Virus record (IMG/VR): IMGVR_UViG_3300036893_000013
Coordinates: 48,038-112,037 of that record
Source of the DNA: a virus
Length of the DNA: 64,000 nucleotides
Strand: one strand, 5' to 3'
In this document: positions 3,631 to 46,655 of the stretch, piece by piece
Position numbering within the stretch: the stretch's first letter is position 1
How the letters are laid out: every line of letters starts with the position of its first letter
Program-made: the position numbers and the translations under genes
The notes under the pieces: generated by a model
The model's database searches: none
What the model was told of the DNA's origin: nothing
What the model saw: the letters and a program-made list of their open reading frames with translations, nothing else

Positions 3631-4847
3631 TAATGAATAGAACCACCTGAAATTTTTCCGTAAAGGCCACTATTAGTGGTGGCAGTGTTGATGGTATAAG
3701 CCCCATAAGAACTTACCGTTGAATCTGAAAGTGTACTTGTGCCTGCCACTACGTTAAGAGTAGTCACAGTACTATTGATAGTTATGGTATTACTTGATCC
3801 CGAAAGAGAGGTGCCGGTACTGCATCCGGTTCCCGCGCCGTTTGTTACTGGAGTTGTGCCATTCTCCGTATAACACATAATTGTAGTTCCAGAATTTGAG
3901 TTAGAACAGGTAACTGTTATGGAAGAACTTGAGACACCAGACCCGGGAGTACAGGTAGGAGCAGTTGCATTTCCACCGCTGTTCACGGTGTAACTGAAGT
4001 TATAAACCCAAAGAGGTCCGACTGTATTTCCATCAGTTCCAGCCGTAAGACCCACATAAGCTGTGTTCATGCTGCCGACGATTGACGGAATGTTAACGCT
4101 AGTCCATACATTATGAAAGCAAGTCGAAGAAGAGGTTGGAGTACACGTTCCTCCAGCAGTAATATCATAGAGATTTAGAGTGAAATTTGAACCATCATAA
4201 ATAACTGTGGCCGAATAAGTGTCTCCAGTCGTGGTGTTAACGGTCGTGGCTGGAGAATTTAATGGTACCGGAGAGGTACTGATCTTACTAGGAGTGTAGT
4301 CCGAGTTATACGGAGGAATACAAGGAGACTGACTAGCTTGATAAATCTGAGCACTGCTGTAACTGAATGGAAAGGGCCACACAGCACTAGATGACAGTGT
4401 ACTGATCTGATCGAGTTCTAGAGCAAAAACATTATTAGGTTCGGGAGGTACGAAAGCTTGATAAAATCCACCTTCGCATCCGGCCCCGGCAACGAAGGTC
4501 TGTCCTTGTGCTCCTCCCAGATTGTTCGTATTGTTCAGAGTGAAAGCAATATTGACACCGTTTGGTACGAAGGTAAAAGTAGAGGTAAAAGCTTGTACAT
4601 TAACGGCGTAGTAATAAATCAAACTTGAAGACCCATGCCCGGCTCCGTTAGGCTGCAAAAGAATATTACTACTTGAAACACTTGAATCTGAGTTATTGAA
4701 AAACTGGAAACCCGGATTTCCATATTGCTGTACACTACACGTTCCAGATGTCGCAGCAATCCAGTTTCCTTGTGTGCAACTGAATATTGACTGCGCCGAA
4801 ACAAGGGAACTGAAGCAAATAATGCCAAGAATGAGTAGTATTTTCAT
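3630..4847 (-). CDS. Secreted L-type lectin-like protein with chitobiase-C-like tail (copy 2)
   Basis: The 405-residue product starts with a clear Sec signal peptide (MKILLILGIICFSSLVSA, cleavage near AQ). The body has legume-lectin-type signatures: NNVFALELDQ, then YSATVIYDGSNFTLNLYD, then a NIPSIVG...AYVGLTAGT segment. The last ~100 residues form a Thr/Ser/Gly-rich beta-sandwich resembling CHB_HEX_C domains. It is a clear paralogue of the protein at 18610-19875, sharing GAGCE(G/A)GFYQAF and PEPNNVFALELD. It lies between a beta-helix protein and the nozzle-like protein, so host-surface or polysaccharide binding is likely. The starting ATG directly follows the upstream stop. The ligand cannot be told from sequence. 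Confidence 0.75.
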   Translation of the reverse strand: MKILLILGIICFSSLVSAQSIFSCTQGNWIAATSGTCSVQQYGNPGFQFFNNSDSSVSSSNILLQPNGAGHGSSSLIYYYAVNVQAFTSTFTFVPNGVNIAFTLNNTNNLGGAQGQTFVAGAGCEGGFYQAFVPPEPNNVFALELDQISTLSSSAVWPFPFSYSSAQIYQASQSPCIPPYNSDYTPSKISTSPVPLNSPATTVNTTTGDTYSATVIYDGSNFTLNLYDITAGGTCTPTSSSTCFHNVWTSVNIPSIVGSMNTAYVGLTAGTDGNTVGPLWVYNFSYTVNSGGNATAPTCTPGSGVSSSSITVTCSNSNSGTTIMCYTENGTTPVTNGAGTGCSTGTSLSGSSNTITINSTVTTLNVVAGTSTLSDSTVSSYGAYTINTATTNSGLYGKISGGSIH

Positions 4848-6272
4848 TTACTGTATTGTTGTGCCAGAATTATATACATCACCGGAGTTAAATGCACTAG
4901 CAGAGACACACCCGGGGGTTACAAGTCCGGTTGGTAAATTGGTGGAACATAGCCACTGCGGATAGAGCGGATCATACCGACTAGTATTTGAGACTGTCTG
5001 ATAGCCGTATGCTGCTGCTACAGAAGTTGGGGTAAAATTAGAAATTAGTGTAGCCATACACGCTACGGTACTCGCATACGAAGAACAAGATGGTGCTCCC
5101 GGAACTGTTGGATTACTAAACGAAACGGCTGTTCCGATGGTATTATTAGGACCATAAGCAAATGATCCTGAAGTATAAATTATAGTATTGTTTCCACTTA
5201 CTCCCGAAGCATATGTGCTGTACAAATGATCGGTCGCATTTCCGTTGCCGACAGCCATCGCGTAGATCGCATTACCACCAAGACCCGTAGCTGTCGATGT
5301 CTGGAGAAGGTTGTTCCAAGCCTGCACATTGTAAGCTGAATAAAGAAATAGTTCTCCAACATCTGTGCGATTTTGATGTGTATCCCGAAGATTACCCCAA
5401 GAGGTATTGTAAAGCATATACACATTACCTAGCGAAGAACCCACTGAATTATAAGGCACTTCAAGGCCGCTGCTGCCGTTCCCTACAGTAATATTGTTTT
5501 GTACAACGACTTGTTGAGAATATGGAGTACCACTCGACTGGGAATAATCTAATGAATCTACGATAATTCCTTCTCCATCTGTTGAACCTCCTCCATTACA
5601 GGTGGCAGGATCATAGTTGGCATAAGAAAAATTACCCGCAATATAGATATGAGTGCCGGGACTGGTGTCTTTAGCAAGAGGTTGATAGACACTTATACCA
5701 CTATAACAGGCAGTATTTCCCTGAGCAGCGTTATAAACTATATCCCCTACAATTGCAATGTAATCTACCGAGTAGCTAGTACCGTCATTAAATGTGGAAA
5801 ATCCACCTCCAATACAGCCGTTAGCTATATCGTCAACAAAGGCAACATCGTACACTTCTGAAGGTGTAGTTTGATTAGGGGAGGCCATAAAGCATCCTAT
5901 GTATTGCTGAGGAGCAGAAGAACCCTGAACTTCCCACCCAGCAATCATCCAATGCGGCTTATCTACCCAGAAGTAGCCCGTAGAACCACTAATGATACAG
6001 GCATCAAAGGTGGTACATTTAAGAGTGGCAAAACAGTGGCCTGACCCAGTAACCGCGCCCCATTCCCCTTGCCAGAAGTTCCACCCGCTATACGAAGAAG
6101 AAGCAGCGGCTGTGATTATATCACCACAATTAACGGCATGGTTTGGACTGAGCCAAGGTGTTCCGGTAGAGGTTCCGTTATTTGAGTCACTTCCCGACGG
6201 CGACAGATAGTAGTTTGTCGCAAAACAGGGAATGGCAAACAGAGATATAAATATTAGAAGATATCTTATCAT
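4848..6272 (-). CDS. Secreted right-handed beta-helix protein (pectate-lyase-like / depolymerase candidate)
   Basis: A longer frame reaches back to 6314, but the ATG at 6272 overlaps the upstream stop (TAATG) and begins a signal peptide (MIRYLLIFISLFAIPCFA), giving 474 residues. The mature start NYYLSPSGSDSNNGTSTGTP is the classic opening of secreted parallel beta-helix polysaccharide lyases and related proteins. Repeated short strands with Asn/Gly turns follow (VVVQNNITVGN, VQAWNNLLQ). No catalytic triad can be assigned by eye. It may cleave capsule, exopolysaccharide or pectin-like glycans around the host. The signal peptide suggests that the lysing or infected cell exports it, unlike ordinary tailspikes. 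Confidence 0.65.
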   Translation of the reverse strand: MIRYLLIFISLFAIPCFATNYYLSPSGSDSNNGTSTGTPWLSPNHAVNCGDIITAAASSSYSGWNFWQGEWGAVTGSGHCFATLKCTTFDACIISGSTGYFWVDKPHWMIAGWEVQGSSAPQQYIGCFMASPNQTTPSEVYDVAFVDDIANGCIGGGFSTFNDGTSYSVDYIAIVGDIVYNAAQGNTACYSGISVYQPLAKDTSPGTHIYIAGNFSYANYDPATCNGGGSTDGEGIIVDSLDYSQSSGTPYSQQVVVQNNITVGNGSSGLEVPYNSVGSSLGNVYMLYNTSWGNLRDTHQNRTDVGELFLYSAYNVQAWNNLLQTSTATGLGGNAIYAMAVGNGNATDHLYSTYASGVSGNNTIIYTSGSFAYGPNNTIGTAVSFSNPTVPGAPSCSSYASTVACMATLISNFTPTSVAAAYGYQTVSNTSRYDPLYPQWLCSTNLPTGLVTPGCVSASAFNSGDVYNSGTTIQ

Positions 6273-8467
6273 TAGTTGTGCGCCATCATTCCAATCTGGT
6301 TGCCTGACCCCCACGATGCTGTTGGAATAGTGATTGTTGACGGTAGTTGCCCGTTTGTGGATGTTTGACTTACAGGCTGACTGGCATTATATGGGGTGAA
6401 ACCTTTCCACTCTTCGTCAAGATTAAGAACAGTGGCATTTCCGGTTACCGCCATATAATAATACTGACCGGCTGCTGGAGCAGTTAAAGTTACAGGGGAA
6501 GATTGGGTAATTGCCTGATCCCATTGACCAGTATGAGTTATGGCTACACCTTGAGAACCGGAACCAATATCAGCAACTAGAGGGCAACTTGTTCCACCTA
6601 GAGCACAAGGACCATAAATACCTATGTCGTAGTAATGTCCAGAAGTAGTGTCATCAGTAGAAACTTGGAAATCTAGATAAGAAATTTTCTGAGCGGTCGC
6701 TGGCCCGTTTACGATTACCCAAGTATAAACAGTTCCAGCAGTTCCTACTCCGAAACTTCCCTGACTGGTTGAACCCATTGAAATGGGCCAGATAGAAGCA
6801 GAAGTGGAACTTCCGCTAGCACAGTTTGCCACATAAGCATCTGTTGCAATATCAGTGTTACTTGCACAAGATTGTGTCGGAGCGGTAGGAGTTCCTGTAA
6901 GAGCAGGAGAAGCAGCAAGTACAACGTTGCCAGTACCAGTACTTGATACATACCCAATTGCCGACCATCCGCTAGATGGAGTACCTGCGGTCATGAACTG
7001 GGTTCCGGAAGGAGCAGTTGTACTCGGTTGCCATCCGTAAGCAGTAGCAGAAGTCGAGGAGAATCCACCAATAGCGAAGTCGTGTGTAGGGATAGTTTGA
7101 TTTGTAGTGTTACCACCTAAATACATCATACCGGCATCTCCAGAAGGGGGAGCAGAACCAATTGGTCCAGCGGAAGCTGTAATACCTCCGCTACCGGCGT
7201 ATGTTAAGGTATTAGCAGTTGTTGCCCCATCATCGAGGTTAGAATCCCCACTAACCGTGCTACCAGTTGACGAATACCATGTAATATGACCAGCATTTCC
7301 ACTACTAACCGTGCCCCCGCCTCCCACAAAAGTACATGTGGATATTGCACTAGAAGGAGTTCCGCAGCTTAAAAGTGGTGTCGAATTGGTGGGTCCAGTA
7401 GCTGGTAGCTGGAGAGCATAAGCTGTAAAAGAAGCTGACGAGGGTCCCATAAATCCAGTGGTATTCGAAGTAACGGCCTGATTTGCTGTATTGCCTATAA
7501 GAGAAATATATCCAGAATGCACACCGTCTGAAGTCGCTGAAACACCAGAACTAAAAGCCGCAGAAGTACCAGTAAGTGCTCCGGTTAAAGTGCCTCCTGT
7601 AAGAGGAAGATCGAGAGTGGCACTGTTAGCCACACACGAGGCGCAAGTACCAGTTAAGTTGGTAATTACTCCGGAAGCGGGAGTTCCTAACGCAGGAGTG
7701 ATAAGGGTAAGATTGGTTGCACTCAATCCACTAGGAAGAGTTGTGCTTTCGGAGGGAACTCCGCTGCCGTTAGTACTTACAACTGCATTATTTACAGGAG
7801 TAACTCCAGCCAAAGCCGAAGTAGTACCTGCGCTATATACGATTGAATTAGTAGCTAAGTTAGCAAGAGTACCGAGATTTGCTGCTGTTGCTGCGGTTGG
7901 ACCCGCACTTGTTGAATCAAATTGAAATCCGGAAATAGCCGATCCACCTACTTGAGATACTGTTCCTGTTTGTGTATACCACGTAACATCGTATTGGGGT
8001 TCAGCGGTTACTGTTCCTGATCCGGAAGGAGTTTGGCAAGCTCCATCTCCTCTGAGATACGTAGAGGAACTACAAGTTCCCGACCATAACCCATACACAT
8101 CCGCTGCGACTGCTATAGAAGGTACACCGGTAGTTGTAGTATTTTTTAAAATACCTGTTCCAAGGCCGGACAGAAGGGTTCCGTTAATACCTTTTACAGT
8201 AGTAGCACCCCCTGTAGAAGTACTGACAGCATCGCCAGTAAGGGCATTGAAGGTACCACTTCCACCAAAAGCTGTCCATGTGTTTGTTGCAGAACAGTAG
8301 TATGGAGATTCAATCCCACCAGAAAGCAGGTAGAAATTAATCACAGGACTACTAACCGAGCAAGTCGCGGGGAGACTAGAACCACTACCGTAACTTACAA
8401 CTCCGCTTTGTGGTCCCGTCTGCGCGAGAGCGGGGAGTGCGAAAAATAAAAATAAGAGTTTTTTCAT
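6272..8467 (-). CDS. Tail fibre-like protein with signal peptide and collagen-free repeat shaft
   Basis: The 731-residue protein opens with MKKLLFLFFALPALAQ, a short Sec signal with AxA-Q cleavage. The middle is a low-complexity Gly/Thr/Ser shaft with fibre-type repeats such as TLITPALGTPASGVITNLTG and LPLTGGTLTGALTG, typical of phage and prophage tail fibres. The C-terminal ~180 residues, after a CASNTDIATDAYVANC segment that often marks fibre junctions, look like a compact beta domain. Stop and next start overlap as TAATG. The shaft strongly supports a fibre. Its signal peptide is the odd part. Confidence 0.7.
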   Translation of the reverse strand: MKKLLFLFFALPALAQTGPQSGVVSYGSGSSLPATCSVSSPVINFYLLSGGIESPYYCSATNTWTAFGGSGTFNALTGDAVSTSTGGATTVKGINGTLLSGLGTGILKNTTTTGVPSIAVAADVYGLWSGTCSSSTYLRGDGACQTPSGSGTVTAEPQYDVTWYTQTGTVSQVGGSAISGFQFDSTSAGPTAATAANLGTLANLATNSIVYSAGTTSALAGVTPVNNAVVSTNGSGVPSESTTLPSGLSATNLTLITPALGTPASGVITNLTGTCASCVANSATLDLPLTGGTLTGALTGTSAAFSSGVSATSDGVHSGYISLIGNTANQAVTSNTTGFMGPSSASFTAYALQLPATGPTNSTPLLSCGTPSSAISTCTFVGGGGTVSSGNAGHITWYSSTGSTVSGDSNLDDGATTANTLTYAGSGGITASAGPIGSAPPSGDAGMMYLGGNTTNQTIPTHDFAIGGFSSTSATAYGWQPSTTAPSGTQFMTAGTPSSGWSAIGYVSSTGTGNVVLAASPALTGTPTAPTQSCASNTDIATDAYVANCASGSSTSASIWPISMGSTSQGSFGVGTAGTVYTWVIVNGPATAQKISYLDFQVSTDDTTSGHYYDIGIYGPCALGGTSCPLVADIGSGSQGVAITHTGQWDQAITQSSPVTLTAPAAGQYYYMAVTGNATVLNLDEEWKGFTPYNASQPVSQTSTNGQLPSTITIPTASWGSGNQIGMMAHN

Positions 8468-8470
8468 ATT

Positions 8471-9580
8471 TTAGTATCCGTAGTAATAGCCGTAATTAAA
8501 GGGACTTGCAGGACCAACAGGATAGAACGGACCTAAAACAGAATCTCCGGACATTTGCGTATCGGGGAAAATACTCCATGCCTGTTCTTCCCTCTCTCCT
8601 GCTCTTATAGCTTGCTCAATTTGTTCATGCCACATCTGATTCTGCATAGCTGCGCGGGGGGAATTAGCATGTTGAAGGCATTTAGCAACAAATCCTTCCC
8701 GGAAAAGATAAGCTAAATCATCTGGAACTGGAGAAATAGTCTGGTCTAAATACTTGAATCTAGGTGCTCTACGTTGGTAAACAATCCAAAATAACCAAGT
8801 AAATCCGCCTTCAGCAGGCAGAGGATTTACTCTTATAGCAAAGCCATTAGGATTAGCTACTGTCCAAGTAAGAGTACCGTCAGGTACCGTAGTACCCGGG
8901 GGCGAGGCGGGAGGAAGTTCCGGAGCAGTAGAACCCGAAGTTCCAAAATTAGCACCCGTACTGTTATAGGGATTAGGTGTCGGTAAAGGAATATTAGTCC
9001 CTTGATATCCTTGAACATTAGGAGTAAGGCCCATGATAGAAGTGTCTAGGAATAGCATGTTCCCATTAGCATCTACGATTTGTTGAATAGGAGTTTGCGG
9101 AGAACCAGAAGTACCATATCCGCAGTTGTATACTGTATTAGCAGTCCAAGTACCAAAATTACACTGGTTATTAGGTATAAAGCATACTATACTGGGATTT
9201 CCCTGATAAGGAGTAAGTCCCATGTCTCTATTAGTTTCCATAAGAAACAGTGGTTTTGGACAGAGATTGCCTGTATTAGTGTTATTATTGATATCAATTC
9301 TAAATGCTGACGTTAGCCAGCCCACGTCAGTTAGATTAGTAATATAGTCTTGCTGTAGAGAATTAGATAAGAATAAGGGAACATAAGACGCATTCCATCT
9401 CCAATTCAAACCTTGCGATAGAATTTTTTGAAGAACATCGTTAGCGAAGGTCAGCGCTGGTTCAAAAGTATAGCCACCCGCAGGAAGAATTGGATTACAC
9501 TCAGAAAAACTTCTAGCATAATCAACTACTTCCTGTAGGGTTATAGAGCTAGGTGGAACTAGATTTGGAAGAACAGGCAT
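8471..9580 (-). CDS. Tail adaptor / head-tail connector-like protein (copy 2)
   Basis: The 369-residue protein has an N-terminal helical region (LQEVVDYARSFSE) followed by a segment LNWRWNASYVPLFL...QQDYITNL..VGWL. The same order, a W-x-WN, a Pro, a (Q/S)DY and a GW(L/I) motif, occurs in the shorter protein at 19876-20610. The C-terminal part also matches, with LFREGFVAK here against IYNQGYLAK there. This pattern resembles podoviral gp11-type tail adaptors (tail tubular protein A). The long Pro/Gly-rich insert (~150-250) is absent from the copy at 19876. There is no signal peptide. Position next to the fibres fits a connector role. Confidence 0.6.
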   Translation of the reverse strand: MPVLPNLVPPSSITLQEVVDYARSFSECNPILPAGGYTFEPALTFANDVLQKILSQGLNWRWNASYVPLFLSNSLQQDYITNLTDVGWLTSAFRIDINNNTNTGNLCPKPLFLMETNRDMGLTPYQGNPSIVCFIPNNQCNFGTWTANTVYNCGYGTSGSPQTPIQQIVDANGNMLFLDTSIMGLTPNVQGYQGTNIPLPTPNPYNSTGANFGTSGSTAPELPPASPPGTTVPDGTLTWTVANPNGFAIRVNPLPAEGGFTWLFWIVYQRRAPRFKYLDQTISPVPDDLAYLFREGFVAKCLQHANSPRAAMQNQMWHEQIEQAIRAGEREEQAWSIFPDTQMSGDSVLGPFYPVGPASPFNYGYYYGY

Positions 9581-9588
9581 GGGTTTCC

Positions 9589-10260
9589 TTAATTAATCAC
9601 TGAACCTGTCAGGTTTTGTGGAGTGGGTGGAGTTGGTATAGAGGGGGCAGTAGCCACGACAACTGAAAAGGTATTACTAGGGGCACTTTGCGTACCCGCC
9701 GCGTCAACTGAAACTACGTAGTAATCATATGTAGTCGAAGCATCGATTGTTTTATCAGTATAGGTTGTAGTTTGTATAGCTGTTGGTGTCAGTTGTATTG
9801 CTGACCCTCCAGCAACAGATCGAAATACAAGGTACCCAGTTACAGCCGGAGTGCTAGTAGTAGGAGCTTGCCATACGAGTGATACACCACAAGCCGGATT
9901 AGGATCAGTAGCACAGAACAGAGCGGGAGTTACTGGAGTTACTGGGGTTACTGGAGGCGTTGTTCCCGCAGCATTGACCGTCAGCGTCAATTTCGTCGTC
10001 GTATAAACACCAGCCGTGGGCGTGGCCTGCTGAACCTCGATATTATAGGTTCCTGCTGCCGTTGGAGTACCTGAAAGAATTCCAGTGGTGTTATCGTAAC
10101 TTAATCCGTCTGCTGATATCTCCTGTATACCGTTAATTGTGACCAGATAACCGCCGTTTGAAACAGGTGCCGCAATAGCCTGACTGAAAGGTACCCCTAC
10201 AGTTGCGGTTGTGGTTTGAGCGTAAACAGTAGATGCCAGCAAAAATAGTATTAGTTTCAT
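9589..10260 (-). CDS. Secreted Ig-like / fibronectin-III protein
   Basis: The 223-residue product starts with a signal peptide (MKLILFLLASTVYAQ). Residues of about 20-95 form a putative Ig (He_PIG-type) domain recognisable by LSYDNTTGILSGTPTAAGTY. After a PVTPVTPVTP linker, residues of about 110-205 look like an FN3 domain (SLVWQAPTTSTPAVTGYLVF..TYTDKTIDASTTYDYYVVSVD). Such domains on phage proteins usually bind surface glycans. The ATG overlaps the stop of the GH30 gene (ATGA), so the two are translationally coupled and may act together on polysaccharide. Confidence 0.7.
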   Translation of the reverse strand: MKLILFLLASTVYAQTTTATVGVPFSQAIAAPVSNGGYLVTINGIQEISADGLSYDNTTGILSGTPTAAGTYNIEVQQATPTAGVYTTTKLTLTVNAAGTTPPVTPVTPVTPALFCATDPNPACGVSLVWQAPTTSTPAVTGYLVFRSVAGGSAIQLTPTAIQTTTYTDKTIDASTTYDYYVVSVDAAGTQSAPSNTFSVVVATAPSIPTPPTPQNLTGSVIN

Positions 10261-13200
10261 TTTAATTGTACCTGTTTGGCGATTAAGTTCCCACTCAGTC
10301 CAATTGGTGGAGGAAGCGGTACTGAGCTAAAGTTAGCTGTAAACGTAGAAGCTTGATTTAAAGAGAATTGAGGACATGGATTTATTGTGCCTACGCAAAC
10401 AGCACTACCTGATGCCCCGGACCACCCTGAAAAAGCATATCCCGGATTAGCCACTGGAGTGCATGGTCCGATCAATGTACCAGAAACATAAGAAGCTGTA
10501 GCACAATTTGTACCTGTAATATATCCGTTCGAAGCTATGGTAGTCAGGGAAACTCCGCTAGTAATTACCCATGTTCCACCTTCAACTGCTGAAGAAGTAT
10601 ATCCGGCTTGACATGCAATTACCCTCATCGTGGTTGTTGTTGAAAATGACTGTGCAGCATACGCAGGACTAGAACAGGTTGGTGCTGAGCCATCTAAAGT
10701 CATGAACATAGAGCAACCAGAAGTTGGAGAAGTCCAACTTACTGAAACAGGAGGAGTAGAGTAAGTGCCTGAATAGTTCGGTGGGTTTTGATAAGGATTC
10801 CCGCAAGTAGAAGTACCTCCCGTAAAAGTTGCAGTTACGGTGGTTGCAGTTGTCAAAACAAACGAAGGACATGGATTTGTTGTTCCACTGCAAGCAGCAT
10901 TGCCAGATACCGTCCATCCTGCAAAGGTTGATCCACCGGTGGCTGTTGCTGTCAAAGGACCTATAGTTGTACCTGATGTATAAGAACCTGTTAAAGAATT
11001 TGTACCAGTAATTGTGCCTGTTCCAGACCCAGAAGTTGAAACAGTTAAACTTACTAATGTACTTCCTCCAATAAGTGGATGTGGATACTGGGCAGGAATA
11101 TATGCAATAGTCCAAGTATTTGTAGAGGTACATTTGAACAACTCACCTTGTCCAAACCCATTGCCACTGCTATTCCAGTTCCCCTGATCTGTCGCCCAGT
11201 ACCCTACGCCTGTAGTGCAGCTAGAGGGCCGATTCGCTAATGCACCAAACCCAACACCGCATGTGTAATTTCCGGACCCTGCGTTACAAGTTGTTGAACC
11301 ATTAAATGGAACTGTTGTTGAAGTTTGTGCTGTTGGACCGGAGAGGCCCCCAGCCTTCCAATCGTCGGTGTAGAAATCACGATTTTGGATGGTCTGTCCA
11401 GCATAATTAGTCCCGAATTGTTGACCTAGAAATGAGGCGGGGGTAATGGTATCATCCCATTCATAAGCAGGATCAAGCACTTCGTTCATCGGCGCGGTTG
11501 GAGTTGGTACTGCCGCTCCTGAAATATAAGCCCCTTGCCCTCTTCCCCACTGATCTTCGCAAACCGTGGCCCGGATGATCTTATAAGTATCTCCGGGATT
11601 GTAAGAGGCCCCGTTGTTGATTTCGGCGTACATCGTCAGGGTGTTGTTAGTGTTGGATGTGATCTGCGCACCGAAGCTTTGCGTTGTATCGTAGAAGAAA
11701 TAAGGTGCGCCATAAGGTGCCCACTGATTAGTTGTCCAACTCTTCGACGTATCGGTAATCGTTGTTGTCCCGCCCCCAGTCAGCGTGCTTGAGACATAAG
11801 TCACATTGTCCACGGTATCGCCGGGATCGATTGAGGTCAATCCACCGCATGTTCCGAAAAAGGGGTTAGCTAGAGCAATACGGTAGGTCGTACCGTCCAT
11901 GATCTGGTTAAAGTAAGCTCCACCTGAACTAATACCGGTATTACCAAATGCAATCCCTGTACCACCCCTGAATGAGACAACAGCATCACCGCAATTTAAG
12001 GTACAAGTAAGCACATTTCCGTATGTTTCTGTATGTCTTCCAGACCTCGGTCTGCCAGTCGAATCTGTTCCGTGAACGGCTGTATAAGCAAAAGCGTTGT
12101 AACCTATCGAATGATTAAAGCGATTTACGACTCGGCATCCACCACTTTGGTTAACTGTGATACCAGCTTCGGTGCAATCATTGAATGTGGAACCATTTAA
12201 ATTAACCTGATTATTTTCTGCAAACCAGTTAGTCAATCCGCCGAAACTATCTGGTTGTGCCCATGAGTTATCGCCAAACTGTCCCACCCCGAGATAGGAG
12301 GACATCTGTGCGGTGTAAAGATGGTTTGAAAGACTACCTGTTGGGAGGGTGGAGTGATCTACAACTCCAATGGCATCATCCACTCGGATCATGTCCACTG
12401 TGTTATCGCCGTTGCCGGATTCAGTCCACTGCGTTGAAATGCCAAAACCGATGTTATCAACACGCACTTGAGGAAATCCGGCAGAAGTGGATGTTCCCTC
12501 GATAAATACCACTCCACCCAAACTCGTAGAACCGTTGATTGGGTCCAGATTCATACTCTCAAGTTTCGTTACATTACTAGTTCCATTATATGTAGGCTGA
12601 AGGAACCAGATAGGACCACTCGGATTGTTGGATTTTATCGTTAGAGTATTAGAACCTGATCCAAATGTTGATGTGCCTGTATTAGCACCTGCGTTTGGAC
12701 CAGTAATATCAATTGAAGCTGTTACTACTACATCAGTTGTCCACGTACAGGTGCCCGCAGGAATTGAAATAATATCTCCATTACAAGCAATATGGGCCGG
12801 TCCATTGATAGCTGAGTTGACATCGGATTGGTTGCAAGATGCAGCCGTGTAATTACCACATCCTGTAGAAGTACCGCTGGCACTGAGAGTTGCATTTGAA
12901 CTTAGTGTGCAGGAAGCTGTCCCCGTTCCTGAAACCCCGCTACAAGACCCAGTACCAGACCACCCAGAACTGAACGTATACCCAGCACTTGGCGTAAACG
13001 TGCATGGTCCAATAGAAGTTCCTGAAGCATATGTTCCAGTTGCACAATTAGCACCCGAAATTGTACCGTTGGTTGCGGTTACCACCAATGAATAATTAGT
13101 AGGTGTAGAGCCAGTACTTACAAAAGTAGTGATGCTTTGTGCAGGTATCGTGTAGGTGAATGACTGACTTGAAACGGTTATATTTGCCAACTGCTGAATA

Positions 13201-14474
13201 CTTTGAGTTGCAGAAGTAATGGTTGGCGTAAGAGTCGTGAACGTCGGGGCGTTCGTGATGTTGAAAACTTGGGAGAGCGAGGACCCGGTGTAGTTAGTCG
13301 CGATGATGACCAGTGTGTTTGAAGAAGTTTGTTGATACGCTGAAACTGTAACTCCGCTTTGCGGGTTGTGCGTAGCACTAATACGGTAGTAGCCGGGTCG
13401 AACGAATTTGCTGTACTGTGCTAATACGTAAGCCCTATCTGCAACCGCATATCCGCTTGCAGCATTGGCTATAAGCGAGCCGTTGCTTGTTGTTCCTGCC
13501 CCTCCAGCCTGATTGAAGTCGATTAGCTGCCAGAAAAGCCACATGTTAGCTCCATCTTGCATCCGCTGATCGATGATCGCACCCCAACACAAACCGTCTG
13601 AAATCGTGGCGGTGAAGCTTGAATACGAACCGCACGCCGGACCATAGCTGGGACCTTGTGATGCTTCTGTTTCCCACCATTTCTTTCCGCTTGCCCAACC
13701 CGCAGGATAAGTGGCAGGACTTACTGGAGGTACTCCACCAGAAAGAAAAGCATCGTAATCGTGCCAATCTGCGACTCCAAGATAAGTCGTGCAGGAGGGG
13801 TCTGTACCGCAAGTTCCACCACTCGATGATACCGCACTGTACTGGTAAGAAGTGGGCATGAGGATTAGTGCCGGGATGCTTTGGGAAGCGAAGGTCGGTC
13901 CTAGATTAGTTTTGATAAAAGTATCGATGTTTCCCGAAGACCATAAGGCACTGTCATACGTCTCGCATTCTTCAGGCTCGTTTTGGACTCCCATTCCGTA
14001 TAACTGAATACCATAGTAGGTCGAGAGGCTTTTGTAGAAGTTTGCGCCCCAGATTGCGTAGTCGCCGTAATGTCCAGATGCAAGTGCTCCTGAACCGGGA
14101 TTACATATTGTGCTGTTATTGGTGGTATATATGGCGGGCGGGGACCAAGGATGAGAGATAATTCTCACGTTTTGAGATGCAGCGTACTGCAAGTCGGCAA
14201 TTACAGATCCAGCGCATCCAGAATTAACAGTCGTACAACTTTGGCCGGGACCATCCTGATGGCCATTAGTCTGCCCTATCCGCAAAACTGACAAACCGAG
14301 TTGCCCTGTTCCATTTCCGAAGAAAAATTGCTGGTGTGCATTAGACATGGAAGTAGTCCAGCCTTCGTTCGAACCACCGAAGCCATCGATTATCTGGGCT
14401 GGGGCAGTCCAGTTGATGGTGGCCTGTCCAGCAAGCGAGAGCGGAAAGAGCAGCAGAAGTATAAGTCTTTTCAT
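10257..14474 (-). CDS. Secreted multidomain GH30 glycoside hydrolase with beta-helix and InlB-like domains
   Basis: The start at 14474 (TAATG with the preceding stop, then signal peptide MKRLILLLLFPLSLAGQ) is preferred over an upstream in-frame codon at 14528. The product has 1405 residues. Residues ~18-455 match a GH30-type (beta/alpha)8 plus beta domain: IIDGFGGSNEGW, acid/base Glu in GVQNEPEE (E166) and likely nucleophile in KWWETEAS (E270). Residues ~460-535, 1140-1210 and 1320-1390 are InlB-like repeats (G-x-FxGWSG pattern). Residues ~540-1130 look like a second catalytic-type right-handed beta-helix. Residues ~1215-1310 resemble CHB_HEX_C. GH30 enzymes attack xylan, beta-1,6-glucan or galactan; the substrate here is unknown. 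Export is implied by the signal peptide. Confidence 0.8.
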   Translation of the reverse strand: MKRLILLLLFPLSLAGQATINWTAPAQIIDGFGGSNEGWTTSMSNAHQQFFFGNGTGQLGLSVLRIGQTNGHQDGPGQSCTTVNSGCAGSVIADLQYAASQNVRIISHPWSPPAIYTTNNSTICNPGSGALASGHYGDYAIWGANFYKSLSTYYGIQLYGMGVQNEPEECETYDSALWSSGNIDTFIKTNLGPTFASQSIPALILMPTSYQYSAVSSSGGTCGTDPSCTTYLGVADWHDYDAFLSGGVPPVSPATYPAGWASGKKWWETEASQGPSYGPACGSYSSFTATISDGLCWGAIIDQRMQDGANMWLFWQLIDFNQAGGAGTTSNGSLIANAASGYAVADRAYVLAQYSKFVRPGYYRISATHNPQSGVTVSAYQQTSSNTLVIIATNYTGSSLSQVFNITNAPTFTTLTPTITSATQSIQQLANITVSSQSFTYTIPAQSITTFVSTGSTPTNYSLVVTATNGTISGANCATGTYASGTSIGPCTFTPSAGYTFSSGWSGTGSCSGVSGTGTASCTLSSNATLSASGTSTGCGNYTAASCNQSDVNSAINGPAHIACNGDIISIPAGTCTWTTDVVVTASIDITGPNAGANTGTSTFGSGSNTLTIKSNNPSGPIWFLQPTYNGTSNVTKLESMNLDPINGSTSLGGVVFIEGTSTSAGFPQVRVDNIGFGISTQWTESGNGDNTVDMIRVDDAIGVVDHSTLPTGSLSNHLYTAQMSSYLGVGQFGDNSWAQPDSFGGLTNWFAENNQVNLNGSTFNDCTEAGITVNQSGGCRVVNRFNHSIGYNAFAYTAVHGTDSTGRPRSGRHTETYGNVLTCTLNCGDAVVSFRGGTGIAFGNTGISSGGAYFNQIMDGTTYRIALANPFFGTCGGLTSIDPGDTVDNVTYVSSTLTGGGTTTITDTSKSWTTNQWAPYGAPYFFYDTTQSFGAQITSNTNNTLTMYAEINNGASYNPGDTYKIIRATVCEDQWGRGQGAYISGAAVPTPTAPMNEVLDPAYEWDDTITPASFLGQQFGTNYAGQTIQNRDFYTDDWKAGGLSGPTAQTSTTVPFNGSTTCNAGSGNYTCGVGFGALANRPSSCTTGVGYWATDQGNWNSSGNGFGQGELFKCTSTNTWTIAYIPAQYPHPLIGGSTLVSLTVSTSGSGTGTITGTNSLTGSYTSGTTIGPLTATATGGSTFAGWTVSGNAACSGTTNPCPSFVLTTATTVTATFTGGTSTCGNPYQNPPNYSGTYSTPPVSVSWTSPTSGCSMFMTLDGSAPTCSSPAYAAQSFSTTTTMRVIACQAGYTSSAVEGGTWVITSGVSLTTIASNGYITGTNCATASYVSGTLIGPCTPVANPGYAFSGWSGASGSAVCVGTINPCPQFSLNQASTFTANFSSVPLPPPIGLSGNLIAKQVQLK

Positions 14475-16504
14475 TATTGTAAAGCCACACTCACGTTGAT
14501 GAAATTTTCCGTGGTCCCAGTCGTCCATGTTGGGGTATAGAGTCCCGCTGATGCCTGCGTATAATGACCTCCCGCTTGGGTGGCTCCTGCCGAATTGGTT
14601 GCGTTTATATCGAACGAAAAAGGAGATGGAGCACTAAGAGCTACCCCAGCCCCTATTCCAATGAACGTGAGGACTAGAGAATTTGCTGCGGTAGTAGTAA
14701 GGGAAGAACCTGTACAACTGGACGAGCAGGAGGCCGTGCCGTAACTGGACAGCACGATCCCTGTTGTCGTGGCATTTGATATCTGTTCTAAGACTCCACC
14801 CATCCCAGCATAAGAAGTTGAGGTTCCTGATACTGTGACCGTACAAGAACCGGTGACATTTGCAACCCCTGTCCAGATTGACTGGCCCGAGGACCCGGTG
14901 GTTGGTGAACCCTGTGCAGTCCAAGTGGGTACACAACCTGAAGGCGTGTTCCATGCTGTAACGTTAATTCCAAGACCCCAAAGTACCAGCGTATTTCCAG
15001 TCGTGATTGATAATGTGACCGTGCTAGACGGATTTACACTGTAGGCTCCTACCACACCAGCAGCAGATACAAAAGTCGGATTACCGCCCCCTCCACCTGA
15101 TCCTCCACCAAGCACAATCCAAGTTCCGGAAGACCCATTACAAGCAACGAAAGCAAAATTTGATCCGCCACTAACATAAGTAGCACCAGAAATAGCGGAT
15201 GTTGAATCTGTAACTGTTGCGGTGGGCCAAGGTTGAGACATGCTACTGCTACAAGTAGGAATAGGATTTGATGAGGCATTGCCAGCGGTGTATGATATGA
15301 CACCGGGACCTGTACCAGCTATAACTACAGGAACATGGGCAGTCAGATCACCACTGTTGGTAATATTGTAATCGAAGGGTAGATATGAAGTGGCTGTTGT
15401 AGCTGTAGCCGCCATAACTCCATACCCGGCAATTTGGCCGGTAATAGAACCTGCGGGAGTACACCACGTACCGTTACCACACCAGACAGTTGAACCAGAG
15501 GCTCCGGTTCCCCCATTAAAATTAGCTATTTGTAGATTTCCTGTAACTCCACCAGCACCCGTCCCAGCTAGGTTAATTGCGGGAATAACCGAGGAGTTCA
15601 ACAATCCACTTGAAAGCTGTGGAATGTCTGAGCCTGAATTACCGACAGTATAACTTGTTCCCCACCCAGAACCAGTTGAGTTTGCAAGTCCGGCCCCGGG
15701 GTAGGTTGAAGAGGCGCAAGAAGAACAAGAAATACTAATACCTAAAGCAGTGGTGGTAATAGAAAGGGGAGAGTTGGCAGTAATATTTGTGCCTATATAG
15801 CTACCCAGATCATATAGTTGAGGAGCTATTAGACTTCCGGTAGGTTCTTCTCCTAGAAAATAAGCATGTCCAGTAGTGGTCTGGCCCGATACATAGGATG
15901 TAGTGTTAGCGCTGGACTGATAAGGAATAGAGCCTAAACTACCCCCAGCTAGTCCTCCGGCATATCCAGTGGTATTAGCACCATTGTTAGGGATATCTCC
16001 TGAAACTAAAGCTCCATAATTAGGAACACCGGCAGACCCAGTATGATTTCCCCATATATAATGAGCAGAAGTACTACCTAAAGAGAGGGTAACTCCTCCG
16101 ACAGAATCATTATTAGTGTAAAAACTTCCATCGCCGGAAACCGAACTAACTCCGGAACCAGAACCCCCTCCAGTATTACCAATCTGAACAATGGTATTGT
16201 TGCATTGACTATATGAAGAACAAACTTTCTCAACCACTCTTGTTCCGGTCTGAACGTAGTAACTATATACTCCGAATGCATTAGCAGGAAAAGGTTGAGT
16301 TAAAGGAGCGGTAAGTGCCTGATCAGAATAAACTGTTTGCGGTGTAGAACATTGTGCCAGCGAATTATATGTACAAACTGATATCTGAGCATTTGGGATA
16401 ATAGTAGCATAGTTACCGCCAGATTTGGTTATAGCAGTATTCCATCTCTGGGCAGACTGGCCTAGAAGCATGGTAGGAAATAATAGCAGCAATAAGTATT
16501 TCAT
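14474..16504 (-). CDS. Secreted fibre-like protein, YSDxALT N-terminal domain (copy 2)
   Basis: The 676-residue protein starts with a signal peptide (MKYLLLLLFPTMLLGQ) and shares its first ~115 residues with the next gene upstream: SAQRW, IIPNAQISVC, VYSDQALTAPLTQPF, FGVYSYYV and VVEKVCSSYSQC. The domain ends in IGNTGGG, followed by a Gly/Ser/Thr-rich fibre-type shaft and a C-terminal beta domain with several Cys pairs. The domain order (short N-terminal beta domain, shaft, receptor-type tip) fits a fibre or secreted adhesin. It is coupled by TAATG on both sides. Confidence 0.65.
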   Translation of the reverse strand: MKYLLLLLFPTMLLGQSAQRWNTAITKSGGNYATIIPNAQISVCTYNSLAQCSTPQTVYSDQALTAPLTQPFPANAFGVYSYYVQTGTRVVEKVCSSYSQCNNTIVQIGNTGGGSGSGVSSVSGDGSFYTNNDSVGGVTLSLGSTSAHYIWGNHTGSAGVPNYGALVSGDIPNNGANTTGYAGGLAGGSLGSIPYQSSANTTSYVSGQTTTGHAYFLGEEPTGSLIAPQLYDLGSYIGTNITANSPLSITTTALGISISCSSCASSTYPGAGLANSTGSGWGTSYTVGNSGSDIPQLSSGLLNSSVIPAINLAGTGAGGVTGNLQIANFNGGTGASGSTVWCGNGTWCTPAGSITGQIAGYGVMAATATTATSYLPFDYNITNSGDLTAHVPVVIAGTGPGVISYTAGNASSNPIPTCSSSMSQPWPTATVTDSTSAISGATYVSGGSNFAFVACNGSSGTWIVLGGGSGGGGGNPTFVSAAGVVGAYSVNPSSTVTLSITTGNTLVLWGLGINVTAWNTPSGCVPTWTAQGSPTTGSSGQSIWTGVANVTGSCTVTVSGTSTSYAGMGGVLEQISNATTTGIVLSSYGTASCSSSCTGSSLTTTAANSLVLTFIGIGAGVALSAPSPFSFDINATNSAGATQAGGHYTQASAGLYTPTWTTGTTENFINVSVALQ

Positions 16505-18309
16505 TAGTTTCCTAGATACTCCAGCTTATAGTGAACATCGTAACTTATGGTTCCGCTGGCCGTTACTAACGGAGTAATAGTAGTATTTACGGCTGCGTAG
16601 AAGACGGCACTGTACTGGTCCCACGCAGGAGCACTGGACCAGATATCGTTCCAAGTAAAGGTGTTGCCCGAAGTATGGGCATTTTGATAAGTAACTGTTA
16701 AAGTAGTATGGGGCGAACTAGTTTCACTAACCGCATTTACATAATATGTAAACCGATACATACCTGCTACGGGGGTGGCGTAGCCGGAGGGAGCATAAGT
16801 AGTTGTCTGAGCGGTAGCAGATAAAGATTGCACTATAGAAGAACTTGTGTATTGACTTATTGGAAAACCAACATAACTGCTGCCGTTCCAATAACATAGA
16901 TTTATTTGATTTGAGAAGGTTCCACCACCAACACTGCAATCAGTTGGAGTTTGACCGTCTGATACGAAACTTACCGATTGGTAAGCTGATCCCGGATTTG
17001 GTAGTCCCGCTATGTTTGTAATATAATTTAGGTTCGGCCAGTTAGGACTTATACCTAATGTATTTAGTGTAGAATTGTAATATAATGGGGGTTGAACTAG
17101 TAAATTTGAACTGCTTGGGGGAGCAGTTCCTGTATAATGAACTTCAAGACCCATTAGGGGAATATATATACTGCCCTGTCCATTACAGCAGCGGGAGGCA
17201 TTCATTTGAATAGCTGAATAGTTTGTAGGTAGGGCACTAAAAGCAACAGAAACTTGCCCCAACGGATAGTCTAGAGCAGGCTGTGAAGCTCCATTAACTC
17301 CTTGAAGCATAGAAGCTCCACCGGGGATGGTTCCGCCACCAGCACTATTTACCCACATACCCTCGAATTCGGAGTTTGCCATGCTAGAGGCTGATATCAT
17401 AAAAGCATATACAGCCGTTATGTTAGATTGAGTAACATAAGAAGGTAATGTAAAATTCGATACCGTAATACCAGAACTCCCTGTACCGTCTACAAGTCCT
17501 CCAAAATATTGTCCAGCAGCATTCTGATAGCAAATAGGATTCGCACCTATACCAGTGTTGGTAATTGTACAACTTGTTCCAAATACTAGCACGTACTGGC
17601 CTGTACCTTGTGGTACATATTGGGTAGCTAAGTTGGAAGCTGCTACATATGCACTTAAATCTCCTCCACTATCGCTTTGGAAAGTTACAGCTACATTTCC
17701 TGTTGGAGGGGTTGGGGTAGTATCATTAAAGTTCAGCAGGACTTGATCTGTAAGATTGGTTCCATTATGCTGTAAAACAAGTTGTTTAGCGCACCCGGAA
17801 GTAGTAGCTCCTCCTAAAGAATCTATACAGAGAAGAGAACCAGAAGAACCTATAGTCCCAGATGAGAGTAGTTTACTGTCAGTTCCTTGAACACTATAGC
17901 TACTTCCCCAAGCTGTACCTGTAGAAACGGGAACTCCCGCTGGGGGATAGACCATACTTCCATTTCCGGTATTGCCTATATAAACATCGTAAAAACTACA
18001 TTGATTATATGGCGCACATACTTGCTCAACTACATGAGTTCCGCCATCGACATAATAGCTATATACCCCTACTCCATTTGCAGTAAGAGGTTGAGTAATT
18101 CCTTGGGTCAAAGCCGGGTCAGAATATATAGAAATTTGACTTATACAATTAAGAGAAGAGTTCCATTCACAAACTGTAATTTCTGCGTTGGGAATAACAG
18201 TAGAAAAATTACTGCCTGAAGCAGGTACCGTTGCTGTACTCCATCTCTGGGCAGACTGACAAATTCCGGAAAGTGGAAAAAGTAGAAACAACAGCAAAAG
18301 CTTATTCAT
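16504..18309 (-). CDS. Secreted fibre-like protein, YSDxALT N-terminal domain (copy 1)
   Basis: The 601-residue paralogue of the following gene has signal peptide MNKLLLLFLLFPLSGICQ and the same N-terminal domain (SAQRWSTA, VIPNAEITVCEWN, IYSDPALTQGITQPL, VGVYSYYVDGG, VVEQVCAPYNQC, IGNTGNG). The rest diverges: a shorter shaft, then a 140-residue C-terminal beta region (FTYYVNAVSETSSPHTTLTV...YDVHYKLEYLG) resembling fibre tips. Pairing of two divergent tips on one shared N-terminal domain suggests alternative receptor or glycan specificities. The ATG overlaps the preceding small membrane gene by 8 bases. Confidence 0.65.
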   Translation of the reverse strand: MNKLLLLFLLFPLSGICQSAQRWSTATVPASGSNFSTVIPNAEITVCEWNSSLNCISQISIYSDPALTQGITQPLTANGVGVYSYYVDGGTHVVEQVCAPYNQCSFYDVYIGNTGNGSMVYPPAGVPVSTGTAWGSSYSVQGTDSKLLSSGTIGSSGSLLCIDSLGGATTSGCAKQLVLQHNGTNLTDQVLLNFNDTTPTPPTGNVAVTFQSDSGGDLSAYVAASNLATQYVPQGTGQYVLVFGTSCTITNTGIGANPICYQNAAGQYFGGLVDGTGSSGITVSNFTLPSYVTQSNITAVYAFMISASSMANSEFEGMWVNSAGGGTIPGGASMLQGVNGASQPALDYPLGQVSVAFSALPTNYSAIQMNASRCCNGQGSIYIPLMGLEVHYTGTAPPSSSNLLVQPPLYYNSTLNTLGISPNWPNLNYITNIAGLPNPGSAYQSVSFVSDGQTPTDCSVGGGTFSNQINLCYWNGSSYVGFPISQYTSSSIVQSLSATAQTTTYAPSGYATPVAGMYRFTYYVNAVSETSSPHTTLTVTYQNAHTSGNTFTWNDIWSSAPAWDQYSAVFYAAVNTTITPLVTASGTISYDVHYKLEYLGN

Positions 18310-18601
18310 TCTTTTTACCCTTAAGGATGTTTAATATATCAGTAATACTGCCCGATGCCCTGTTAACTCCATAAGGAGCAGTAAAGAAAAGAACCAGCGC
18401 AGAAATTATTAAAGGAATTGCCGCTAACCATGAGTTGAGTATAACCACATCCGTGATTTTTATTATGTGATCAAATACTTCTATAAGGATATAAGATGAA
18501 ACTATAGCAAGAATTGTACTTAGGACACGACTACTCGATCCATTTCCGTTATCTGAATACACAGATTGGAAAAAAGCACAGAATTTACTTAGAAAGTTCA
18601 T
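18302..18601 (-). CDS. Small two-TM membrane protein (holin-like candidate)
   Basis: This 99-residue protein has a polar N-terminus, a first hydrophobic helix (~27-45, VLSTILAIVSSYILIEVF), a short turn, a second helix (~58-75, WLAAIPLIISALVLFFTAP) and a Lys-rich tail (LKGKKNE). Two helices with a charged C-terminus fit class II holins, and it is one of few holin candidates in the window. No endolysin is adjacent; its neighbours are secreted adhesins. It could equally be an export helper for those proteins. Function is inferred from topology only. Confidence 0.5.
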   Translation of the reverse strand: MNFLSKFCAFFQSVYSDNGNGSSSRVLSTILAIVSSYILIEVFDHIIKITDVVILNSWLAAIPLIISALVLFFTAPYGVNRASGSITDILNILKGKKNE

Positions 18602-18609
18602 AAATTTCC

Positions 18610-19875
18610 TTACGGTAGCGTGACTGTTTGCGCGGGAATGGTAACTGTAATGGGACTTCCGCTCGTCTGAATTGTCAGTGTTTGGGCTGGAATACTTAAA
18701 CTGGCGGGTAGGGTTACTGGAATGTTGATCGTGTAGGACACTATCGAGGTTGATGATTCGGTGTCGCCGGGTGCCGTTGCATAAGCTGCGATGCTTTCGT
18801 TCTGACCTACTGTAAGCGGCTTGGTATAGATCGTCTCTGCTGCGCCGTTGACACTGTAATAGATGGTTGCGCCGGGAGTTGTGTCCGAAATAGTGACTGT
18901 TTGTGCCAAAGTGTAAGTGCCCGGTCCCGGTAAAAAAGTCGGTGTATCAACCGTTGGTGCAGGGGCTGCAACAGAACCCGTTGTATAACTGAATTGACGG
19001 ATGACAAGAGGGGTAACGGCTCCGTAAGGAGTATCCGAAGTGCCTGCTGTTAATCCGGCATAAGCTGTACTTCCACCTACCAACGAAGGAATGTTTACGT
19101 TGGACCAAGTGTACGTAAAACATCCAGACCCGGGGCACGATCCACCAGCACTTACATCGTAGAGATTAAGCGTTACATTTGAGCCGTCGTAGCTAATAGT
19201 TGCTGAATAGGTGTCCCCTGTACTTGTATCACTTGAGGATACAGGAGAATTCAAAGAAACAGGAGCGGTGCTGATTTTGCTTAGAGCGTAATCAGTAGAG
19301 ACTGGAGCGGGGATACACGGCGATTGATTACTTGAGTAGATTTGTGTGCTACTGTGACTAAACACAAAAGGATACGGAGCACTTGCTGATAGGGTGCTGG
19401 CAGAGTCTAGTTCAAGAGCAAATACATTATTTGGCTCTGGGTTAGGTGGTGTTTCCTGATATCCGAATGCCTGATAAAATCCCGCTTCGCATCCTGCTCC
19501 AGCCGTGAAGGTTCCACCCTCTGCTGAATTTGTACCCGGCTGATTATTCGTGTTATTCAGAAGAAAAGCCACGTTAGCCCCATCTGGAATAAACTCAAAG
19601 CTGGCAACGAAATTGTTGACAGGTAGGGGTTTCTGGTATATAAGTGAAGTCGATCCATGACCAGACGGCAGTCCAACCATAGTCAAAGCTGATCCAGATA
19701 TACCTGAATTGTTCTGTGGTGAATTTAGATAGAAGGGAAAGTTTCCAAACCCACCTTGTACACTAACAGCACAAACTGCTGCGGGGACTGTATTAAAGCC
19801 AGAACAATTAAACCCGGTCTGACCATACACATACACAGGAAGAGATAGTATAAAAAGTAGTATAAAATTTTTCAT
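18610..19875 (-). CDS. Secreted L-type lectin-like protein with chitobiase-C-like tail (copy 1)
   Basis: The 421-residue protein has signal peptide MKNFILLFILSLPVYVYGQ, then an L-type lectin-like fold: SGHGSTSLIY, FEFIPDGANVAFLLNNTN, PEPNNVFALELD, YSATISYDGSNVTLNLYD, NIPSLVGG..AYAGLTAGT. Residues ~305-385 match the CHB_HEX_C pattern (FLPGPGTYTLAQTVTISD, GATIYYSVNG). The tail (SIPAQTLTIQTSGSPITVTIPAQTVTLP) is a Thr-rich repeat. It is a paralogue of 3630-4847 and sits next to a tail-adaptor paralogue, as that copy lies near the other adaptor. Probable role: carbohydrate binding at the host surface. Confidence 0.75.
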   Translation of the reverse strand: MKNFILLFILSLPVYVYGQTGFNCSGFNTVPAAVCAVSVQGGFGNFPFYLNSPQNNSGISGSALTMVGLPSGHGSTSLIYQKPLPVNNFVASFEFIPDGANVAFLLNNTNNQPGTNSAEGGTFTAGAGCEAGFYQAFGYQETPPNPEPNNVFALELDSASTLSASAPYPFVFSHSSTQIYSSNQSPCIPAPVSTDYALSKISTAPVSLNSPVSSSDTSTGDTYSATISYDGSNVTLNLYDVSAGGSCPGSGCFTYTWSNVNIPSLVGGSTAYAGLTAGTSDTPYGAVTPLVIRQFSYTTGSVAAPAPTVDTPTFLPGPGTYTLAQTVTISDTTPGATIYYSVNGAAETIYTKPLTVGQNESIAAYATAPGDTESSTSIVSYTINIPVTLPASLSIPAQTLTIQTSGSPITVTIPAQTVTLP

Positions 19876-20610
19876 TTAGCTTCCGCTACGACCTTGACGA
19901 CCAATTGCTCCGGTCTGGGACACAGATTGTGTTTCTCGTTGATAAATCAAATGTGGAAATAGAAAGATATTTTTCTGAGTTTCAGAAAGTCCTTCAGAGG
20001 CAGCAATAACTTGTTTAAGAAACTCCTGATGAGCAAAGGCAAATCTTTCATCGCCTTTATATTCATATGTTTTGGCTAAGTAGCCTTGGTTATATATATA
20101 AGAATAATAATCGGGAATGGGCGACCAAGTATCAAAAACAGTACCGAAAGTTGGAGACGATTGTTGATATAAGATATTTAGAACATAGGCTTTATCAGGT
20201 ACAGGCATCAATCTGAAAGTAATATTGCCGTTGTTATCGTCAAATACTGGTGAGATATAGGCAGGTTGTCCTAACCTAGTTTCACCGACTAACGCCATGT
20301 TAACTTCAAGCTCTTTGGAATAAAGGACTTGGTTGCCATCGGTATTAGGAGGAAATACTATGGTAGCTTTTTCAATCCAGCCAAAATTAGATACAGTAAC
20401 TTGATAGTCAGAAGTACCCGGTTCACAAACTATAGGAGGTACTGCTGCTCTATTCCAACGCCAAGCGAAGGGGGGAGCTAACATAAATTGACGTACCCAA
20501 TCGCCTATTGAATACGCCAATGCCCCACTATTCACGTAGAGTAGAGGGGCATTATAGATAAACCGAGAAGTAATATCTATCGTTGTTTTTAACTGGATCG
20601 AGGATGACAT
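19876..20610 (-). CDS. Tail adaptor / head-tail connector-like protein (copy 1)
   Basis: The 244-residue protein starts with a strand- and Tyr-rich N-terminus, then FAWRWNRAAVPPIVCEPGTS.YQVTVSNFGWIEKA, the W-x-WN...GW motif shared with 8471-9580. The second half (VLNILYQQSSPTFGTVFDTW, YIYNQGYLAKTYEYKGDERF) is the helical, Tyr-rich part found in gp11-like tail adaptor proteins of podoviruses. It lacks a signal peptide. It lies directly after the head genes in transcription order, which is the usual place for the adaptor. This is likely the canonical copy. Confidence 0.6.
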   Translation of the reverse strand: MSSSIQLKTTIDITSRFIYNAPLLYVNSGALAYSIGDWVRQFMLAPPFAWRWNRAAVPPIVCEPGTSDYQVTVSNFGWIEKATIVFPPNTDGNQVLYSKELEVNMALVGETRLGQPAYISPVFDDNNGNITFRLMPVPDKAYVLNILYQQSSPTFGTVFDTWSPIPDYYSYIYNQGYLAKTYEYKGDERFAFAHQEFLKQVIAASEGLSETQKNIFLFPHLIYQRETQSVSQTGAIGRQGRSGS

Positions 20611-36237: not shown

Positions 36238-36388
36238 GATAGACCTTTTTATTATGAGATGGGGCTTTTCAGGCCGGAGAAGGAGGGGTCACACGGTACC
36301 CCTCAGTTATGTACATACTCGCCAGCATTGCACTGGCATTGCGAAGACGGGAATTTATGACCGGCTAACAAAATCCTCCGGCTCACAT

Positions 36389-36460
36389 AAAACTTATAAA
36401 ACTTATAAAACTTATAAAACTTATAAAACTTATAAAACTTATAAAACTTATAAAACTTAG
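36389..36460. repeat. Eight tandem copies of a 9-bp unit AAAACTTAT
   Basis: From 36389 to 36460 the unit AAAACTTAT repeats eight times without mismatch except for the last base. It lies in an untranslated gap between the decoration gene and the tRNA-like locus. The 9-bp period keeps a frame (Lys-Thr-Tyr), but both ORFs across it are implausible. It looks like a slippage-prone microsatellite. Confidence 0.9.
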
Positions 36461-36769
36461 AACACCGGGCGTTGAGCTTATGCTTGCCCGGTAATCTTAA
36501 GTCCGATTTGTACTCCCTCGGAACCGGGGCAGAAGGATTAAAATCCCTCAAATTCTAAACTTTTTAAACTTTAAACTTTAGCTAGTTTCTCTCACGGGAC
36601 TAGCGACCCTAGTGAACGGCAGGTAGCGACTGCGCGGAGCCTGTAGTTCTAAAAACTAGCGGTCACTGGTGCTCTCAGCTTTAAGCTACACCCGTCCACT
36701 TAAGGGCGGGAGAAGAGGCGCTAATCTCTTTATCCTTCAGTCGGGTCCGCTATCTTGTGCATCTAAACT
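36461..36769. other. Gene-free segment with possible structured RNA
   Basis: No credible ORF is seen. It contains several short inverted repeats (for example CTAGT / GACTAG around 36579-36602 and 36645), and together with the repeat and the tRNA-like locus forms a 720-base non-coding interval, long for this tightly packed genome. Nothing specific was recognised. Confidence 0.3.
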
Positions 36770-46646: not shown

Positions 46647-46655
46647 AATTAAACC

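Follow-up and report, generated by a model that had tools for sequence, protein, structure and literature searches.

Phage depolymerases are usually parts of the virion, made and mounted in the cytoplasm. The gene studied here (hereafter GH30-stalk) lies in a 64-kb stretch of DNA (the window) taken from a 112-kb virus record, the remainder of which was read as well. It resembles the phage tailspike depolymerases (reviewed in PMC5380687) in being a tail-block gene, in encoding a polysaccharide-active domain together with a probable beta-helix and in varying between relatives, but differs from them in its Sec-type signal peptide, in a GH30 head that is separate from the stalk and in the absence of a recognised N-terminal virion-binding domain. 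For export of a phage enzyme via the host Sec system there is a precedent in the endolysin Lys44 of fOg44, although Lys44 is a cell-wall lysis enzyme and not a surface-glycan protein (PMC6116005). The chitosanase V-Csn is another glycoside hydrolase from a soil virus; it belongs to a different enzyme family, however, and was classed as an auxiliary metabolic gene (PMC9485262). A limited literature search found no direct precedent for a phage GH30 or for signal peptides on tail proteins.

Among enzymes, the GH30_10 xylobiohydrolase AcXbh30A (7n6h/7n6o) is a tied-best structural match that belongs to the same broad clade and has both catalytic Glu residues, whereas it is a bacterial cellulosomal enzyme with a dockerin and only 30% identical to the window protein. 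The GH30_8 xylanases XynC (3gtn/3kl3) and CpXyn30A (5cxp) share the fold, the catalytic pair and the group 2 layout described below.

The GH30 head and its viral relatives

The initial annotation had recognised a GH30-type catalytic domain with both catalytic Glu residues visible, and Pfam, the PDB search and an AF2 model all confirmed the GH30 domain. The Pfam match to PF02055 (Glyco_hydro_30) just cleared the cut-off (24.2 bits against 23). The PDB sequence search was decisive; in phmmer the window protein matched 7n6h at 2e-36 and XynC 3gtn at 4e-35. The AF2 model, for which 33 relatives were aligned, had a pLDDT of 81.7 and formed a (beta/alpha)8 barrel with a side beta domain. VIA-align superimposed it on 7n6o with Z 47.4 and an rmsd of 2.0 A over 403 residues, and the nearest GH30 xylanase structures, for which Foldseek was also run, gave Z 45-47 and an rmsd of ~2 A over ~380-400 residues. 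Both E166 (GVQNEP) and E270 (WWETE) were invariant across 34 homologues, and the WSPP, QNEP, HxY and WETE motifs around the catalytic Glu residues were all kept.

Almost no residues precede the barrel, which by the criteria of PMC11058611 corresponds to the GH30 group 2 layout. This group includes the xylanolytic subfamilies and is rich in xylanases, but contains galactanases and fucosidases too (PMC11058611). A GH30_8 glucuronoxylanase was ruled out, since the 'prokaryotic Arg' of the WYIRR motif, to which GH30_8 enzymes owe their specificity for glucuronoxylan, is missing and the position reads WQLIDFNQ; the non-specific CpXyn30A and CaXyn30A lack this Arg as well. In the tree the domain grouped with AcXbh30A and with enzymes of soil Acidobacteria and Verrucomicrobia (support 100/99), and the AU test gave p 0.36 for the alternative. 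A firm GH30_10 assignment was dropped because the AU test allows other placements, identity to AcXbh30A being ~30%, and the domain was left without a subfamily; judged by the tree, the window GH30 clusters loosely with the GH30_10 xylobiohydrolase.

GH30 had been called rare in phages, which holds for deposited phages but not for IMG/VR, where the same clade occurs in several other virus lineages. The deposited-phage collection contained no match to the window protein, and phage-GH30 queries retrieved from it nothing but a GH30 gene of Salmonella, a small fragment with the same gene and unannotated faecal fragments. Scanning IMG/VR with the GH30 alignment revealed GH30s in contigs L122-L129, of which L128 is G003 (see below) again and L124/L125 and L126/L127 are near-duplicates. 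All viral GH30 domains in the tree (8/8) grouped in a single clade that also contains AcXbh30A and certain soil bacteria. The GH30 of L122, 45% identical to that of the window, is encoded upstream of DUF2460 and baseplate-hub genes, and the L127 gene follows a P22-type coat gene. The GH30 proteins of L124-L127 have no signal peptide at their start, so export is not a property common to all phage GH30s, and virion-bound GH30 enzymes probably also exist in nature.

Some of these records had features of their own. The viral GH30s of L124 (444-1595) and L125 (937-2088) have QGEP in place of QNEP as their acid/base motif, and the 923-aa viral protein of L123 (6675-9446) combines a GH30 at its C-terminus with an N-terminal region that by eye resembles another barrel glycosidase. 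In an Acidobacteria MAG contig (L026, 1-3510) a GH30 near the phage clade is encoded beside two genes that look by eye like glycosyltransferases, a pairing that hints at exopolysaccharide work.

Module layout and the stalk

GH30-stalk is a single ORF on the minus strand, with its ATG at 14474 and its stop at 10257-10259 (Table 1). The coordinates and the length given in the initial annotation were right, but the strand was not; a plus-strand reading of 10257-14474 was ruled out because it is riddled with stops. The ATG directly abuts the stop of the upstream gene in a TAATG junction and the surrounding genes abut equally tightly, which makes both the start codon and the N-terminal signal peptide MKRLILLLLFPLSLAGQ credible. 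As regards secretion, the signal proposed earlier holds as a Sec-type peptide in a heuristic scan, and the protein would thus be exported. The InlB- and CHB_HEX_C-like modules were likewise recovered, with Flg_new_2 matching at 5.7e-13 in three stretches and CHB_HEX_C_1 at 2.9e-9.

Table 1. Features of the GH30-stalk gene and of its neighbours in the window
Feature	Position	Strand	Basis
GH30-stalk protein, 1405 aa, whole gene	10257..14474	-	ORF, translation, TAATG junction
Sec-type signal peptide, aa 1-17, MKRLILLLLFPLSLAGQ	14424..14474	-	n-h-c pattern, heuristic scan
GH30 catalytic domain, aa 18-455 (barrel and side beta domain)	13110..14423	-	Pfam, PDB, AF2
E166, predicted acid/base (QNEP)	13977..13979	-	invariant in alignments
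E270, predicted nucleophile (WETE)	13665..13667	-	invariant in alignments
InlB-type repeat 1, ~aa 456-535	12870..13109	-	Flg_new_2 stretch, approximate boundary; aligns with L109 repeat
Stalk (chassis), ~aa 536-1138, probable right-handed beta-helix	11061..12869	-	homology to L109, L130 and L131 proteins; fold predicted
InlB-type repeat 2, ~aa 1142-1219	10818..11051	-	Flg_new_2 stretch, approximate boundary
CHB_HEX_C_1 module, aa 1235-1297	10584..10772	-	Pfam
InlB-type repeat 3, aa 1313-1385	10320..10538	-	Flg_new_2 stretch
Signal-peptide paralogue of the 421-aa lectin-like protein	3630..4847	-	47-50% identity
Signal-peptide protein, second probable beta-helix	4848..6314	-	by eye; Pfam match not found
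Tail-fibre-like protein with signal peptide	6272..8467	-	type by eye
Second adaptor-like paralogue	8471..9580	-	26-30% identity to first adaptor; 84% to L109
fn3-like protein with signal peptide, next gene	9589..10260	-	
Signal-peptide protein with SAQR module at its N-terminus	14474..16504	-	
Second signal-peptide protein with SAQR module	16504..18309	-	
99-aa membrane protein, holin-like by eye	18302..18601	-	59-61% identity in L109, G003
Signal-peptide protein with CHB_HEX_C module, 421 aa, lectin-like by eye	18610..19875	-	
SU10-type tail adaptor, flank of variable block	19876..20610	-	Pfam PF24175

The region of ~600 aa after InlB repeat 1, annotated at first as a second beta-helix domain and possible lyase, turned out to be a real conserved module, whereas the fold was not confirmed and no lyase family matched. 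Pfam and PDB searches of this stalk region gave no meaningful match, and a single-sequence AF2 model was unusable (pLDDT 33). A beta-helix lyase was rejected, as Pfam matches up to E 10 were at chance level and neither the PDB nor the single-sequence AF2 model supported it. However, the L131 protein shares 45% identity with aa 476-1335 (over 881 aa) and the L130 protein 43% with aa 540-1312. In both of these proteins a signal peptide is joined straight to the stalk and Pfam detected no GH head; the L131 gene lies downstream of baseplate-like genes. Aligned queries were required to detect such relatives in viral contigs, as neither the entire protein nor the stalk by itself, unaligned, retrieved any; a stalk search of 297 Acidobacteriota genomes yielded weak fragments only. 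By homology, the stalk is a conserved module common to phage proteins; a right-handed beta-helix is its putative fold.

Head exchange and signal peptides in the tail block

Contig L109, a close relative, repeats the gene order of the window, with the 99-aa membrane protein (59% identity), two SAQR genes (~60% identical within the SAQR module), the slot of GH30-stalk, a small protein and the adaptor (84%). L109 stems from the metagenome that also yielded L005, whose terminase is 81% identical to that of the window; the two may be parts of one virus. Its slot (10181-13285), downstream of the SAQR genes and upstream of the adaptor, encodes a signal peptide, a GH10 domain (Pfam 9e-44), InlB and a stalk homologous to that of the window protein. 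In PDB alignments the nucleophile position of this GH10 is Gln, while the acid/base Glu is kept, with SE replacing NE; the head may therefore bind without cutting, and catalysis is perhaps not what the slot selects for.

The GH10 head could mean that the proteins are mainly non-catalytic adhesins, in which GH heads serve as lectins and hydrolysis is optional, and the stalks that exist without a GH head (L130, L131) are in line with this. The window protein, on the other hand, keeps both Glu residues and all four surrounding motifs, and we consider a mainly non-catalytic role improbable. The same stalk with a head from a different xylanase family suggests an interchangeable tool that attacks or grips host sugar coats, and rapid head turnover at one tail-block slot is the behaviour of host-surface recognition genes.

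A second relative, G003 (terminase 70% identical), has a separate 465-aa GH30 gene (27% identical to the GH30 of the window), which adjoins a signal-peptide gene probably encoding another beta-helix. In L019 (14656-16655) a probable beta-helix gene of G003, adjoining the GH30 gene, is split by a frameshift. Neither GH30 nor GH10 was found in the records examined for G004 and G006. By eye, homing-endonuclease-like ORFs of L019 (5217-5882, 6600-7130) and L020 (3214-4044, 5206-5958) seem to lie within or beside the gene for the major head protein in the relatives.

Sec-type signal peptides were found in 8/10 genes in 3630-19875, compared with 5/113 other ORFs of the same phage (Fisher p 5e-8), a figure to be used as a guide since it comes from one heuristic (rather than SignalP) and a mechanical ORF list. 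The 99-aa membrane protein encoded in the block was flagged too but, as transmembrane and not secreted, was tallied as the fifth of the 5/113. This variable block has the SU10-type adaptor on one flank and the adaptor paralogue inside, and GH30-stalk is encoded in a tail/host-recognition module. In other viral contigs, homologues of the SAQR module begin with a signal peptide wherever the N-terminus is present.

The placement between adaptor genes argues against an auxiliary metabolic gene, that is, an exported xylanase freeing plant-xylan sugars for the infected host. Such a role would agree with the many xylanases of GH30 group 2 (PMC11058611), with the heuristically detected signal peptide and with the proposal of other soil-virus glycosidases as auxiliary metabolic genes (PMC9485262). 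Yet the gene lies in a tail block, its head differs between relatives, with a mutated nucleophile in one of them, and sugar-uptake or catabolic genes were not seen nearby; we regard this role as quite improbable.

The position beside adaptors would also suit a conventional virion tailspike or depolymerase, in which the hydrophobic N-terminus escapes processing and works as an attachment peptide, holding the protein on the tail of a particle assembled in the cytoplasm. The GH30 proteins without signal peptide in the structural modules of L124-L127 and the location of the L131 stalk gene close to baseplate-like genes point in the same direction. Against it, eight differently built neighbours carry signal sequences of the canonical n-h-c type, most of which end in a small residue with Gln after it, and in GH30-stalk the signal peptide is directly followed by GH30, with no recognisable virion-binding domain ahead of it. 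A conventional tailspike thus seems unlikely, and we prefer an exported protein. Two points count against export: tails are assembled in the cytoplasm normally without Sec-exported parts, and the same heuristic found no signal peptides in the tail genes of Tunturi_3.

Tunturi_3, a phage of Tunturiibacter (PMC11924767), is the closest cultured phage by terminase (24% identity). A distant SAQR relative was found in an Acidobacteriota genome island together with an integrase-like gene (island genes identified by eye). Because of this relative and of Tunturi_3 an Acidobacteriota host is likely, and the window comes from a soil phage, probably of this phylum.

Several other genes were recorded. A histidine phosphatase (Pfam; 23123-23737) is encoded near the major head protein gene of the window, as it is in G003 and G004, and a simple repeat encoding KFYKFYKFY (36303-36551) lies between the structural genes and the tRNA-Pro/tRNA-Asn genes. 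At 45996-47378 a vWA protein with a weak TerF-like match is followed by a TerC membrane protein (Pfam). A NAMPT-like protein with an intein-like insertion (both by eye; L002, 349-2730) and the phosphoribosyl pyrophosphate synthetase of the window (62010-62849) make up a putative phage pair for NAD salvage, with one gene at either end of the record. L003 (10264-13971) encodes a 1235-aa ribonucleotide-reductase-like protein, seemingly with two intein insertions (by eye).

Proposed role at the host surface

We propose with moderate confidence that GH30-stalk encodes a Sec-exported, head-swappable glycan depolymerase or adhesin that would act against host surface polysaccharide, and not a plant-xylan metabolic gene. 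The initial annotation had left the choice between a carbon-cycling and a depolymerase gene; the tail-adaptor block, the GH30/GH10 head swap and the other phage GH30s in structural modules favour a depolymerase acting on host glycan, while only the xylan-type fold and the signal peptide speak for carbon cycling.

The signal peptide would carry the protein across the inner membrane, and the InlB, stalk and CHB_HEX_C parts would anchor it to glycan or the cell surface. The GH30 head, with its catalytic pair intact, would hydrolyse a beta-linked, xylan-like polysaccharide of the host or biofilm. Release may occur at or before lysis, or binding to virions may follow once the cell has lysed; in the latter way the exported protein could come into contact with virions assembled in the cytoplasm, or else it may act freely after export. 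Thinning of the host exopolysaccharide would let progeny spread and adsorb, and an exchangeable head could evolve with host coats. GH10 is known mainly for beta-1,4-xylan. Since the swapped heads come from GH10 and GH30 group 2, largely xylan families, they point to a beta-1,4-xylan-type linkage, a reading qualified by the galactanases and fucosidases of group 2.

The new elements are the signal-peptide block, a complete set of tail-block genes with export signals, and the GH30/GH10 swap, in which catalytic heads of two xylanase families alternate on one stalk. More tentatively, we suggest that in a group of soil phages, probably those of Acidobacteriota, the whole tail-block set of fibres, lectins and glycosidases may be Sec-exported, with swappable heads (GH30, GH10 or none) riding on a shared stalk; these proteins would act extracellularly on host polysaccharide or join virions only after lysis. 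Acidobacteriota are abundant soil bacteria with few known phages. If true, our proposal would reveal a novel way for phages to deliver their glycan enzymes, offer a handle on the surface coats of Acidobacteriota and caution against tallying soil-virus GH30 or GH10 genes as carbon-cycling genes.
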